From NCBI RefSeq assembly GCF_900230215.1, contig NZ_LT907982.1, positions 2,232,001 through 2,296,000 of the forward strand: a stretch of DNA of 64,000 bases. Direction: 5' to 3'. This document shows positions 17,917-22,244 of the stretch, in pieces. The notes beneath the pieces are model-generated. The model was given only the letters and a program-made list of their open reading frames with translations. It was not told the origin of the DNA and ran no database searches. Within the stretch, counting starts at the first letter, position 1, and each line of letters opens with the position of its first letter. The translations under genes were made by a program, and so were the position numbers. Source of the stretch: Jatrophihabitans sp. GAS493 (GTDB lineage Bacteria > Actinomycetota > Actinomycetes > Mycobacteriales > Jatrophihabitantaceae).

Positions 17917-18314
17917 CGGTAGCTCTTGCAGACCGCTTCGAAGAGGGCCCGGACCTTCTCCTCGTGACCGTGACCTTTGCAGTGGTCGAGGGTGTTGTGG
18001 CAGCTGTTGTTGTGGCCAGGCTCTTTCGGGCACAACGTCCGGGAGCCCGTGTTGGCCGCGACGCGGTACTTCAACTCAGAGTCCGCGTGTCTACTCCGCT
18101 TGGCAATGATCGGATGACGCATCTCGGACGCCGGGTTATCCCGACAATCGCACCGCTTCACGGTGTAGCGGTAGACCTGCCCCTGGCCGAACTGGCGGTA
18201 CTTAGCCGAGACGCCGACGATCTCCCATCCGGTCGGCATCGCGGTGAGCGTGATGGTGCCGGTGCGCTTCTCGACGATCTCCACCTGGATGTCGTCGACG
18301 CTGACAGCGGGCAT
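17913..18314 (-). CDS. Phage protein with Cys/His cluster, function unknown
   Basis: The protein has 133 residues: a beta-rich N-terminal half (VEIVEKRTGTITLTAM), then CDCRDN, and a C-terminal Cys/His-rich stretch (LCPKEPGHNNSCHNTLDHC). AAGGA stands before the ATG at 18314. It is coupled to the helicase gene by an ATGA overlap. A zinc-bound structural role is plausible; no named family is recognised. Confidence 0.6.
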   Translation of the reverse strand: MPAVSVDDIQVEIVEKRTGTITLTAMPTGWEIVGVSAKYRQFGQGQVYRYTVKRCDCRDNPASEMRHPIIAKRSRHADSELKYRVAANTGSRTLCPKEPGHNNSCHNTLDHCKGHGHEEKVRALFEAVCKSYR

Positions 18315-18381
18315 TCTGGATTCCTTAGAAAGTTGGGGGTGCGGGCCAGCGCCACCCCAGTAGCGCTGGCCCGCGGGCGGG

Positions 18382-19191
18382 TTACTGCTGGCCGGTCAGC
18401 CGGGCCATGAGGGCTTGCTGCTCCGCGTTGAAGTCCTGCGGGGGCTGCACCGCTGGCTGGGCAGGCACCTGCTGAACCGGCTGCTGCGCGTAGGAGGCCT
18501 GGACCTGCGGCTGCTGGATGACCGGCGGCACGTACTGCTGAACCGGCTGCTGAACCACCGGGGCGGCCTGCGGCTGCGCGGGTGCCGGGGTGATGACCCC
18601 AGGGCGCTGGTAGGCGACCGAGAAGATCTTGGCCGGGTTCATGCCCGGGCCGCTCTGCCGCGTGCTGGTGAATGTGATCTGGATGGCGGCGCCGGCCTCC
18701 GGCGGTCCGACCGGAGCGCCGGCCTCTGCCATCGCCCGCACCAGCTCGTCGCGGGTGGCGCCCTTGACGTACCAGGTGCCCAGACCGTCGGGGTGCGTCG
18801 GGCTCGGCTCCATCTGCAGCGGCACCTTCATCACGAACTTCGGGCTGCCGTCCCGGAAAAACAACGGCTTGCCCTGGGTGTCGGTCTGCTGCTGGATGTC
18901 ACCGGAGCTCAGCGGCCGCGCGACGATTCCGACGTAGCTCTGGCCCGGCTGCTCGAACGCGAGTGACTTCCCTCCCCCGGTGCTCTGCTGGTTGTAGAAG
19001 TCGTCGAGGGAGCCCTGGGCCAGCGGCTGGGCGGGAGCGGCCATCTGCGGCTGCGGGTACCCCTGCTGCACCGGGAACTGGGCCGGGGGCTGCTGGTAGA
19101 CCGGCTGCTGGAACTGCGGCGGCGGTGCGTACTGCGGCTGAGCGGGCGGTGCGTAGGTGGGCGGGTAGCCCGGCTGTGCGAACTGCGTCAT
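18382..19191 (-). CDS. Phage single-stranded-DNA-binding-like protein with Gln/Pro-rich arms
   Basis: The protein has 269 residues. Residues 1-55 and about 195-255 are Pro/Gln/Tyr/Ala low complexity; the centre (LDDFYNQQSTGGGKSLAFEQ, then VGIVARPLSSGDIQQQTD and FVMKVPLQME) is beta-rich and resembles proteins annotated in actinophages as ssDNA-binding. Disordered arms are typical of SSBs that recruit partners. It lies between the exonuclease and helicase genes, fitting a recombination/replication role. AAAGG precedes the ATG. SSB function is inferred. Confidence 0.6.
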   Translation of the reverse strand: MTQFAQPGYPPTYAPPAQPQYAPPPQFQQPVYQQPPAQFPVQQGYPQPQMAAPAQPLAQGSLDDFYNQQSTGGGKSLAFEQPGQSYVGIVARPLSSGDIQQQTDTQGKPLFFRDGSPKFVMKVPLQMEPSPTHPDGLGTWYVKGATRDELVRAMAEAGAPVGPPEAGAAIQITFTSTRQSGPGMNPAKIFSVAYQRPGVITPAPAQPQAAPVVQQPVQQYVPPVIQQPQVQASYAQQPVQQVPAQPAVQPPQDFNAEQQALMARLTGQQ

Positions 19192-19245
19192 GAGAATTGC
19201 CTTTCGATTGTTGGGTGACGCTGGGTGAGTGGGTGGCGGCGTTGG

Positions 19246-19740
19246 CTACGAGCTGGCGGTGCCAGGGCAACCAACGCCGCCGTCTTTGGCCGACTGCAAT
19301 TGCTTGCGACGTGCGCGTCGGGTGCGTTGACAGTTGGTTTTGCATGTTCGGCACACCCTGCGATTTCGGTTATCGACAACGGTGTTTTCGGATGAGTACG
19401 CGTGACCAGATGGGCAGTGGGTTTTGGTCGCGTGATGTGCCGCAGGCCCCTCGCCGCGAAGTACGTTCTCGCGGTGAGTGACCGGTTCTAGATGCGCCGG
19501 GTTGACGCAAGGTGGGTTCCGGCAAAGGTGATCGAGTGACAACCCGTCCGGGATGGGACCGACCAACAGCTCGTAGGCGTAGCGGTGGGCCAGTGTTTTG
19601 CGCCCCTCGACGCGGAAACGCCCGTAGCCGAGCGGCTGGCGGTAGCCCCGCCATTCCCAGCAGTCACCGTCGGTGGAGCCCTTCTCTACGAACGCAAAGA
19701 AGCGCTCAGCGGCGGTGACGCCGAGTCGAGGCCTAGCCAT
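19246..19740 (-). CDS. Free-standing HNH homing endonuclease whose tail copies the exonuclease C-terminus
   Basis: The protein has 164 residues. WEWRGYRQPLGYGRF and AHRYAYELLVG lead into the HNH core LSLDHLCRNPPCVNPAHLE, then an H-x-K-THCPSGHAY zinc module common in phage HNH enzymes (about residues 110-140). The last 16 codons (19249-19296) encode QSAKDGGVGCPGTA plus two residues, almost the same as the end of the neighbouring exonuclease, but with many silent differences. The start overlaps the exonuclease stop by 8 bases. This is the signature of a homing endonuclease that entered the 3' end of the exonuclease gene. Confidence 0.88.
   Translation of the reverse strand: MARPRLGVTAAERFFAFVEKGSTDGDCWEWRGYRQPLGYGRFRVEGRKTLAHRYAYELLVGPIPDGLSLDHLCRNPPCVNPAHLEPVTHRENVLRGEGPAAHHATKTHCPSGHAYSSENTVVDNRNRRVCRTCKTNCQRTRRARRKQLQSAKDGGVGCPGTASS
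19249..19296 (-). repeat. 48-bp copy B of the exonuclease 3' end, fused to the HNH gene
   Basis: In frame with the HNH gene. Encodes the same 14-residue motif as 19742-19789; most base differences are at third codon positions. A 17-base core (plus strand ACGCCGCCGTCTTTGGC) is identical in both copies. Confidence 0.85.
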
Positions 19741-20548
19741 TGGACCCCGCCGTTCCGGGGCACCCGACGCCGCCGTCTTTGGCGCTCTGAGGCCTATAAA
19801 AGGGACAGAAGTAACAAAGGTCAGAGTCAGGAGTGGAAGGGACTTGAGACAGCTGCAGCCGGCCTGCGTGGATCTCGCGGGCGTAGTGCTGGCGAGTAGC
19901 GGTTTGTTCGAAGACCACTTGCAGGAGGTCGTCGATGTCGCTGGTGCGGTGTGCCTGCTCCCAGACGTAGAGCCCGTCAAGGCTCCCGGCAGTCGCGGGG
20001 TAGGCGAGCAGGACAACCCGGTCAACCGGGAGCCCCATGTTGCGGTAGCCGAGCCCGTAGAGATGGAGCTGGACTCGGTACTGCCTGGACGGACCCTTGG
20101 CCGATCGAACTTTGGCCAGGCTGGATTCGCCCAAGAATTTGTGGTCGTCGACCGAGCGCTCCTGCGCGTCGTAGAGGTCGGCGGTTCCGGGGTGGTCGGG
20201 GTGCGGCGTGACGCGCTGCTCGGCCACCCAGCGCATGACGTTCTTTCGCACGTTGTCGGCGGTGAAGGCGTCCGCGGCCCAGGCGTGCAGCGCGGTGCCG
20301 CGGATGGACGGCCAGGGGTCGAAGACGTGGTTGGTGGTGGGGCAGCCGGCCATCTTGCCGGCCACCTGCCGGTCGCACTCCACACCGAGCTCCGACGGGC
20401 CCAGGTGCAGCTGCAGCGATCGCGGGGCTTGGGCGGCGTGCTCGTGGAACACGCGCCGGATCTCGTTGGCGTAGCGGGCTGCCCAGGCGGTGTTGCCGTT
20501 GAGCGGCTTGGGGGCTGAGGCCATGAACGCGGCCGGGGACAACGTCAT
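19733..20548 (-). CDS. Cas4-like PD-(D/E)XK exonuclease with Fe-S Cys cluster
   Basis: The protein has 271 residues. LGPSELGVECDRQVAGKMAG carries the first Cys and the conserved Glu; GTALHAWA, the acidic SVDDHKFLGE (Asp...Lys catalytic motif) and RQYRVQLHLYGLGY (QxxxY) follow; the last Cys residues lie in LCYFCPFYRPQ and VGCPG. This matches the RecB/Cas4 exonuclease family with a 4Fe-4S cluster, which resects DNA ends for phage recombination. ATG 20548 overlaps a 47-residue gene (ATGA). The last codons are duplicated in the downstream HNH gene. Confidence 0.87.
   Translation of the reverse strand: MTLSPAAFMASAPKPLNGNTAWAARYANEIRRVFHEHAAQAPRSLQLHLGPSELGVECDRQVAGKMAGCPTTNHVFDPWPSIRGTALHAWAADAFTADNVRKNVMRWVAEQRVTPHPDHPGTADLYDAQERSVDDHKFLGESSLAKVRSAKGPSRQYRVQLHLYGLGYRNMGLPVDRVVLLAYPATAGSLDGLYVWEQAHRTSDIDDLLQVVFEQTATRQHYAREIHAGRLQLSQVPSTPDSDLCYFCPFYRPQSAKDGGVGCPGTAGSNG
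19742..19789 (-). repeat. 48-bp copy A of the exonuclease 3' end
   Basis: Native position in the exonuclease gene; pairs with copy B at 19249-19296. Encodes the last Cys of the presumed Fe-S cluster. Confidence 0.85.
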
Positions 20549-20688
20549 GACTGGACGTCCTTGAGCGAGTCCAGCCACGCGCAGTGCTCAGCCCACTGAC
20601 GAGCCTCACGGCTGCGGCGGGTGACTCGGCGTTCGTCGCGGACGAGCAGCGCGACCACGAGAAGCTGAACCACGATTAGGGTGATCAC
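20545..20688 (-). CDS. Small single-span membrane protein, 47 residues
   Basis: GTG at 20688 overlaps the upstream TGA (GTGA) and the stop overlaps the exonuclease ATG (ATGA). Residues 2-16 (ITLIVVQLLVVALLV) form a membrane helix, followed by a basic stretch (RDERRVTRRSREAR) and QWAEHCAWLDSLKDVQS. The exact overlaps on both sides support translation. The positive-inside rule puts the tail in the cytoplasm. Function unknown. Confidence 0.7.
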   Translation of the reverse strand: MITLIVVQLLVVALLVRDERRVTRRSREARQWAEHCAWLDSLKDVQS

Positions 20689-21356
20689 GACTCAGCGCCC
20701 GACCTTGCGGCGGCTACGGCCTTCGGGTCGAAGCCCTCGTGCACAAAGCGCTGATGGCCGGCCCGGCCCTGGGCGGTGTCGAATACCCGGTCGCAACCTT
20801 CGTACTGGCACGGGTGTTCGCCGGCGGCCTTGATCGGTGTGGGCTGCTGCGGAGCAGCGCTCGGCGTGGCCGGCGTCGCGGACCCCCCCCGCAGCTTGGC
20901 CTTGGCTATCTTGAGCGCCGCCTCGAGTTCGGCGATCTCGGCCCGGGCCGCACGTCGCGCCTGTGCGCCCTCGCGGTCTTCGCGCAGCCGGTTGTTCAGC
21001 ACGTCCAGGTCGTGGCGGATCCGCTCGCCTAGGTTGACGATGCGCTTGGAGTCCGACGTGGCGGCCTCTTCGAGGATCGCGTCAGCGGACGGCCCAGCCG
21101 CGGGGGCAGCGACGGTCGCCGGGCCGAACTCCTGTGGGAACGGGTTGACGGGCTTGGGCGCCACCGGCGAAGCGACCGCCTTGAGAGCGGGCGGCGCGGT
21201 GGTCGGTTTCGGAGCGGGCACGTCGGGGTCGTACTCGTTGCAGTCGCAGTTCGCACGGTCTTGGGCGTCGGTGTGCAGGCAGATCCGCAGGCCACCGTGG
21301 GCGTGCTCGATGCTGGGGTGGCCGCAGGTGCAATCGACCCGGCGAGGCGCGGTCAT
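20685..21356 (-). CDS. Phage protein with N-terminal Cys/His module and C-terminal C2H2 zinc finger
   Basis: The protein has 223 residues. The N-terminus CTCGHPSIEHAHGGLRICLH with CDCNEY is a Cys/His module; a Pro/Ala linker follows, then a charged coiled coil (about 105-160, RIRHDLDVLNNRLREDREGA), and a classical-looking finger CQYEGCDRVF...GHQRFVH (C-x4-C ... H-x3-H) near 190-212. C2H2 fingers are rare in bacteria but occur in some phages and in Ros/MucR proteins. DNA binding is plausible. ATG 21356 is set by an ATGA overlap. Confidence 0.65.
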   Translation of the reverse strand: MTAPRRVDCTCGHPSIEHAHGGLRICLHTDAQDRANCDCNEYDPDVPAPKPTTAPPALKAVASPVAPKPVNPFPQEFGPATVAAPAAGPSADAILEEAATSDSKRIVNLGERIRHDLDVLNNRLREDREGAQARRAARAEIAELEAALKIAKAKLRGGSATPATPSAAPQQPTPIKAAGEHPCQYEGCDRVFDTAQGRAGHQRFVHEGFDPKAVAAARSGAES

Positions 21357-21478: not shown

Positions 21479-21864
21479 GCCGCCACCTGCTCGGCGTCGC
21501 GGGCCTTCGCGCGGTGACGGGTGACGGTGCGCATCGAGATGTGCAGCTGCGTTGCGATCGTCTTGGAGGAGAGGCCACGGGCGTTCAGCGCCAAGACGGC
21601 CTCGTGCAACTCCGCGGAGGTGACGTGCACGTTCAGGTCGCCAGCGAGGAGCCGCTGAACGGCCACCGGATCGGGGGCGTACTTGCTGCGCGCGACGCGG
21701 ATGCGGGAGCCCCTCGGGTGGGTGAGCCAACGTTTCGCAACCCGGTGGCCGCAGCTGACGCAACGCCCGTGGCTGTAGTGGCGTAGAGCGCCGATCGCCC
21801 TGCGTTCCTCGAGTCGCCGGCTGGAGCTGATCAGCCGGCCGCAGTCGACACAGTTCCCGGTCAT
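21475..21864 (-). CDS. Helix-turn-helix protein with N-terminal zinc-ribbon-like Cys pairs
   Basis: The protein has 129 residues. CVDC (about residue 5) and CVSC (about 35) could form one zinc ribbon. The C-terminal 50 residues (ELHEAVLALNARGLSSKTIA, then LHISMRTVTRHRAK) are a LuxR/sigma-4-like helix-turn-helix. A regulator of phage early transcription is the simplest reading. ATG 21864 and the stop are both ATGA overlaps. Confidence 0.7.
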   Translation of the reverse strand: MTGNCVDCGRLISSSRRLEERRAIGALRHYSHGRCVSCGHRVAKRWLTHPRGSRIRVARSKYAPDPVAVQRLLAGDLNVHVTSAELHEAVLALNARGLSSKTIATQLHISMRTVTRHRAKARDAEQVAA

Positions 21865-22244
21865 GACGACTGGCCGCCGACCGGCGCGAGCTTCCAGCTG
21901 GTGCTCTTCTTGGCGTACGTGACGTAGAGCGCCGGGTTCTCGGCCTTGAGGCGGGTGGAGTCGATACGCCAGCTCTCGATGGCCTGCATCTTGAGCGGGC
22001 GCGCCAAGTGCGGGCTGGTGACCACGATCTCGGCTTCACCGGGGCGGGCCTGCGCGAGCTCGAACTTGATGCCGTTGGTGATCTCCTCGACGCGCTTTTT
22101 CGCTTCGTCGGCGTCGCGTTTGGCCTCGTCGTAGCTAAGCAGCAGCTGGTCCAGCCGGCTGTTGATGTCGGGGGTGACGGAGGGGACGGCCGGTGCGGGC
22201 GCGGGTGCACCGGGGATGGGCGGGAGCGAGTTGGCGATCGTCAT
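21861..22244 (-). CDS. Phage early protein with coiled coil, function unknown
   Basis: The protein has 127 residues: a Pro/Ala-rich start, a coiled coil (RLDQLLLSYDEAKRDADEAK, about 30-60), then ARPLKMQAIESWRIDSTRLK and NPALYVTYAKKSTSWKLAP. The last segment recurs in small actinophage proteins encoded beside Cas4-like exonucleases, so a role with the recombination enzyme is possible. It is translationally coupled on both sides. Confidence 0.62.
   Translation of the reverse strand: MTIANSLPPIPGAPAPAPAVPSVTPDINSRLDQLLLSYDEAKRDADEAKKRVEEITNGIKFELAQARPGEAEIVVTSPHLARPLKMQAIESWRIDSTRLKAENPALYVTYAKKSTSWKLAPVGGQSS

Follow-up and report, generated by a model that had tools for sequence, protein, structure and literature searches.

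An HNH endonuclease gene inserted at the 3' end of a Cas4-like exonuclease gene between two silently differing copies of that end, and related gene-end duplications in phages

Homing endonucleases are thought to spare the genes of their hosts by residing in introns, inteins or intergenic sites, or by splitting genes into pieces that reassemble. Judged from its sequence, the locus described here has its nearest known architecture in the mobile ORF (mORF) insertions with duplicated gene ends of fungal mitochondrial DNA, which occur in Glomus atp6, atp9, cox2 and nad3, with a further such insertion in Allomyces macrogynus atp6 (PMC3630166). The relevant passages of a review of phage T4 describe homing endonucleases that are intergenic or that split genes into pieces that must reassemble, and these passages contain no recoded rebuilding of an interrupted end (PMC2988022). 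A study of the HNH endonucleases of Skunavirus phages reports marker exclusion and polymorphic flanking core genes, and a term search of that paper returned no duplication or recoding of gene ends (PMC12724721). The open-access literature, to which the search was confined, yielded no phage description of elements with rebuilt gene ends, and hence no priority is claimed.

The window analyzed here, a stretch of 64,000 nucleotides, is set in a bacterial chromosome of 4.88 Mb. The region around the exonuclease and HNH genes listed in Table 1 looks like a prophage, because the gene matches there are to phage families. The ATG codon of the HNH gene (19740) lies inside the 3' end of the exonuclease gene with an overlap of 8 nt, and the counterpart of the next gene is the landmark directly after the exonuclease gene in most relatives that lack the HNH gene. 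The exonuclease residues C58, C245, C248, C263, D124, D135-H136-K137 and Q160 are invariant across seven relatives, and the protein has the D...D-x-K motif and the four conserved cysteines characteristic of Cas4-like and RecB-family nucleases, although the Pfam nuclease models gave no match. The invariant cysteines presumably hold an iron-sulphur cluster, by analogy with the Cas4 and AddB nucleases. The rebuilt segment codes for C263 and the surrounding G-C-P-G motif, and an insertion without copy A would cost the exonuclease this cysteine.

Table 1. Features of the window at and near the HNH insertion (positions within the window).
Feature	Position	Strand	Family match
Cas4-like exonuclease gene, 271 aa, host of the insertion, intact through its rebuilt end	19733..20548	-	PHROG 1674 (exonuclease; E 3e-59, residues 14-266)
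Copy A, recoded resident last codons of the exonuclease gene, from the CAG at 19789 to the stop at 19733, encoding QSAKDGGVGCPGTAGSNG and the stop, with the invariant fourth cysteine C263	19733..19789	-	
HNH endonuclease gene, 164 aa	19246..19740	-	Pfam HNH_3 (E 2.4e-13), PHROG 826 (E 2.8e-55)
Copy B, displaced second exonuclease end, in-frame last residues of the HNH protein, from the CAG at 19296 to the stop at 19246, encoding QSAKDGGVGCPGTASS and the stop	19246..19296	-	
Next gene, of unknown function	18382..19191	-	PHROG 1911
Gene for a 127-residue product similar to the C-terminal part of a RecE-like exonuclease family	21861..22244	-	PHROG 434 (E 4e-8)

The preliminary description of this DNA had singled out positions 19246 to 19789 as an HNH gene ending in frame with a second version of the last exonuclease codons, and this interval proved exact, as it runs from the start of copy A to the end of copy B. 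The exonuclease C-terminus QSAKDGGVGCPGTAGSNG and the HNH C-terminus QSAKDGGVGCPGTASS have 15 of 16 residues in common, of which 14 are consecutive. The silent codon differences reported for these 14 shared residues were also confirmed: 7 of the 14 codons are unlike (copy A/copy B: AGC/TCG, GTC/GTT, GGG/GGT, CCC/CCT, GGA/GGC, ACG/ACC and GCG/GCC), with nine base differences, all nine of which are silent. None of 400,000 simulated random sets of nine base changes was entirely silent. The silent character of the differences indicates that both copies were functional coding sequences during most of their divergence, which counts against a duplication followed by decay. The alignment score of the two copies is 81, and the match is not attributable to chance because none of 1500 mismatched flank pairings reached 45. 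The recoding in the window is only partial, since a stretch of 17 bases, GCCAAAGACGGCGGCGT, is unaltered between the copies.

The residues D70, H71 and N92 of the HNH protein are invariant among 20 sequences and have the spacing of D74, H75 and N96 in I-HmuI, and the catalytic residues of this I-HmuI-like member of PHROG 826 and HNH_3 are intact. The structure model is confident, with an I-HmuI/I-PpoI-like core, where the pLDDT is about 96, and a poorly ordered copy B tail, where it is 60-71. The Foldseek match of the model to I-HmuI has a probability of 0.99 over 66 columns, though the E-value is 0.08, and the matches to I-HmuI and I-PpoI fit an HNH/His-Me finger core; a sequence search of the PDB gave no useful match. 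No Rfam intron was matched at E<=1 in positions 18300-20700 of the window, and none was found at gathering scores in the phage loci L008, L067 and L171 considered below. A group I or II intron was ruled out, as these searches found no intron RNA and the exonuclease frame is whole and closes on a stop codon of its own. An intein was ruled out on account of this stop codon and of the ATG of the HNH gene, which lies in a different frame overlapping the exonuclease end.

Relatives of the exonuclease gene without an HNH gene were found in viral contigs (L003-L006), in one same-family genome (L010, 76% identity) and, when the search was widened to the order and the class, in L011, L012, L321 and L322. 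The genus- and family-level searches returned L010 alone, and those against genome contigs and plasmids returned no relatives. All nine HNH-free alleles have a single end with no HNH gene behind it, and in L006, L011, L012, L321 and L322 the exonuclease gene is directly followed by the equivalent of the window gene at 18382-19191. The site is thus empty in these nine alleles and occupied by an HNH gene in the window and in L067, a related phage contig. The Arg codon of YRP is AGG and the second cysteine codon is TGT in the window and L067, against CGN and TGC in seven HNH-free alleles, and the Ser codon is AGC in copy A, TCG in copy B and TCN in those HNH-free alleles that have this Ser. The pattern of AGG, TGT and AGC is suggestive, but not decisive, in marking copy A as the odd end; L321, compared along the full segment, is equally close to copies A and B. 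The low GC3 near the exonuclease end was dropped as a mark of recoding, as the HNH-free L010 and L012 dip too. No close HNH-free allele of the window's own exonuclease gene was found, and the native and element-borne copies in the window were therefore assigned via homologous sites.

At the first of these sites, L067 has an HNH with 66% identity at the same exonuclease codons. Bases 2274-2309 of L010 align twice in L067, to its copy A and to its copy B, where copy B matches at 33 of 36 bases (3 differences) and copy A at 27 of 36 (9 differences). The L067 and L010 exonuclease genes are about 87% identical upstream and about 70% identical over roughly the last 55 codons, a drop that is seen near the insertion only. 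These alignments indicate that the displaced copy of L067 is the native end and that its resident end is the odd one.

The clearest case in the sequences surveyed is that of Gordonia phage Malisha (L008), where an HNH gene lies in the start of the lysin B gene and is absent from Spooky and many other relatives. The displaced lysin B start of Malisha is the same as that of the HNH-free Spooky at 81 of 81 bases, against an identity of 63% between the resident start and Spooky. Spooky, Periwinkle and Ecliptus agree fully (100%) in codons 12-21 of lysin B, where Malisha is 67% identical, and the native-invariant codons altered in Malisha amount to 13 of 18 in the start region compared to 15 of 65 in codons 34-150 (p = 2e-4). 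The divergence covers approximately the first 31 codons, and the remaining blocks are mostly at 0.7-0.97 relative to the natives, like the natives among themselves; with the rest of lysin B ordinary, only the duplicated part is divergent. A search of 50,697 phage records found nothing closer to the recoded start. To the left of the insertion, Malisha and Spooky show no difference over the adjoining 2870 bp, and to the right they are about 84% identical, which fits acquisition with one-sided co-conversion, although an identical left flank is expected of any insertion. The HNH protein of Malisha (gene 29, L008:1261-1920) is annotated with an N-terminus made up of 27 codons from the native start of lysin B, and the HNH gene calls in such phages probably contain displaced gene ends. 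Over about 5.6 kb to the right of the insertion (L319:8464-14057 compared with L320), the gene contents of Malisha and Spooky are unlike, and each has an additional HNH gene there (gene 34 in Malisha and gene 31 in Spooky).

These comparisons bear on the remaining claims of the preliminary description. The insertion of the HNH gene into the 3' end of the exonuclease gene is upheld by the nine single-ended alleles and by the same insertion in L067. The claim that the resident end was re-made silently, with the original left on the HNH tail, holds by way of the homologous sites, the window itself showing silent divergence only. The proposed check against HNH-free relatives was run and came out in the direction anticipated, with L010 matching copy B of L067 over copy A and Spooky matching the displaced copy of Malisha. 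A duplication without an HNH gene, named as counterevidence, was looked for and is absent from the nine close HNH-free exonuclease alleles.

The loci for a survey of gene-end duplications were gathered with the HNH protein and its alignments from viral contigs and annotated phages, and 215 HNH instances were retained after removal of duplicates. The upstream and downstream flanks were matched at the protein level with a score of at least 45 and varied residues required, and the matches had to end at stops or begin at starts on both sides, because an unanchored first survey, since discarded, had produced low-complexity false matches (L127, L130, L200 and L221). Gene-end duplications at the HNH borders were found in 10 of the 215 HNH relatives and in none of 1500 mismatched pairings, and about 95% of the surveyed HNH loci have no such duplication. 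Control ORFs in the same loci gave 7 hits in 927 at this score, including the L088 HNH locus itself, and the comparison of 10/215 with the remaining 6/927 gives p = 1.3e-4 (Fisher). Three of the control hits were looked at, and correspond to tandem paralogues (L073), a repeat-rich frame (L199) and an unexplained case (L125). In the last (L125:1300-1650), an ORF of 106 residues that does not match HNH terminates in GRAIEAKLKEKNHG and the preceding gene in YKAIEQALREKNHG, which makes it a gene-end duplication without a known endonuclease.

The duplications affect several unrelated genes and take two mirror forms, at 3' ends and at 5' starts. The 3' type comprises the window, L067, L020, L113, L123 (a low-GC phage) and L077, where the host gene is, by eye, a different Cas4-like nuclease gene in L020 and a Gp157-like gene in L113. 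The 5' type comprises L008 (Malisha lysin B), L088 and L171, and also L103, which is outside the strict rule. Nine of the ten cases were inspected (all but L233), and over these nine together with L103 and the short candidate L090, 48 of 128 same-residue codons are identical between the copies. The displaced copy is in frame with the HNH gene in the window, L067 and L020 and out of frame in L123 and L113, so that its fusion to the HNH protein is incidental. The comparison of L171 with the HNH-free L054 points in the same direction as the other pairs, with fewer codons and more weakly. At this 5'-type locus (L171:1450-1931, L054:847-1100), L054 has a gene of about 200 bases upstream of the target that L171 lacks, which implies that the insertion replaced a neighbour too. 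No phage relative of the L123 locus turned up in a DNA search, and CMP1, where the HNH gene lies between the helicase and exonuclease genes, has no end duplication. Further HNH relatives (L007, L150, L153, L154, L155, L157 and L158) adjoin replication or recombination genes of named phages, namely helicase and exonuclease genes in CMP1, ssDNA-binding genes in DrYang, Yvonnetastic and Darolandstone, a RecT-like gene in MoontowerMania, DNA polymerase I in GageAP and an annealing protein gene in Plumbus.

The sequences compared demonstrate an insertion at a gene end, a silently differing resident end and the recurrence of this arrangement in several genes, and they identify the displaced end as native at two homologous or parallel sites. 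The explanation that we favor, with a probability of roughly 0.77, is an HNH homing element, free of intron and intein, that would restore the interrupted gene by means of a recoded end. The mobile unit would consist of the HNH gene and a recoded end of the target gene, and would enter the exonuclease gene immediately upstream of where the last conserved cysteine is encoded. The element-borne end would then complete the exonuclease as copy A, the original end would be pushed downstream and persist only as the short in-frame HNH tail (copy B), and splicing would be unnecessary for an intact exonuclease. In the mirror form, the element would rebuild gene starts. The HNH enzyme may nick or cut the original end in a competing or co-infecting genome, where recombinational repair would then copy the element into the cut genome, and the recoding may spare the resident copy both from cutting and from recombination with the displaced copy. 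A shield against cleavage is plausible, and the immunity step has a precedent, as recoding the target gene against a phage homing endonuclease made the attacked phage viable again (PMC11620839). The wider proposal, that phages carry natural splicing-free home-and-rescue drives in 3' and 5' forms, with recoding selected for uncuttability and the carrier unharmed, is evenly balanced in our estimate; if it is true, such elements enter codons that are conserved and functionally needed, in genes for replication, recombination and lysis.

The purpose of the recoding is the one point on which a second reading, compatible with the homing element in all else, departs from it. The HNH gene may have brought a divergent exonuclease end from another phage, in which case the divergence would reflect origin and not protection. 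The closest fungal mitochondrial cases have been read as horizontally acquired foreign C-termini (PMC3630166), and the high divergence between the copies (48/128 codons identical over 11 cases) is as in distant homologues. However, the divergence in Malisha is restricted to the duplicated part of about 31 codons while the remainder of the gene is ordinary, and no closer source was present among the 50,697 phage records, though one may exist. We regard a foreign end without a shielding function as possible, with a likelihood of around one third.

Gene or gene-end duplications without an HNH gene do occur, for example in the controls L073 and L125, and the exonuclease end could thus have been duplicated in tandem long ago, with an unrelated HNH gene landing later between the copies. 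A dead copy would gain amino-acid changes, yet 9 of 9 differences are silent; none of the nine HNH-free exonuclease relatives is duplicated, at two sites the displaced copy agrees with native alleles, and the duplications are enriched at HNH borders, all of which makes this history highly improbable. There is just as little likelihood that the HNH protein captured the exonuclease end as an extension that functions in DNA binding or regulation. The tail is in frame in the window, L067 and L020, but its predicted structure is poorly ordered; it is missing from most HNH relatives, is out of frame in L123 and L113, and tracks the host gene and not the HNH gene.

A homing element with a recoded end would represent a third way of sparing the host gene in phages, where the element supplies a recoded version of the displaced piece and enters conserved coding sequence without splicing. 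It would account for odd HNH gene calls whose ends resemble neighbouring genes, and Malisha and Spooky provide a clean presence/absence pair for homing and immunity in laboratory phages. It would also be a natural counterpart to the recoded rescue in engineered gene drives. The HomeR home-and-rescue drives likewise place a homing nuclease in a needed gene together with a recoded restoring part, but they are designed, CRISPR-based and used in insects, whereas the phage elements are natural and putative drives (PMC7968924).

As in free-standing (intronless) homing, the HNH gene is present or absent at one and the same site, both in the exonuclease gene and in lysin B. According to the T4 passages mentioned above, the seg and mob endonucleases are similarly intronless, lie beside or in replication genes and have starts that overlap the upstream gene (PMC2988022). 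The I-HmuI-like HNH enzymes of the Skunavirus study have the same D-H-N residues with the same spacing and are inserted beside core genes (PMC12724721). As in the fungal mORFs, the endonuclease gene is flanked by two versions of the C-terminus of the host gene, where the displaced version resembles that of relatives and the inserted version, with mostly silent changes, completes the gene (PMC3630166). A native displaced end with mostly silent divergence of the resident end was found in L067/L010 and in Malisha/Spooky, and more weakly in L171/L054. Membership in the fungal mitochondrial class was nevertheless rejected, as the elements described here are HNH genes in phage DNA that work alike only; the fungal mORFs encode LAGLIDADG or GIY-YIG endonucleases in mitochondria (PMC3630166). 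Unlike them, the phage elements have a mirror form at gene starts and a displaced end that is sometimes fused in frame to the endonuclease.
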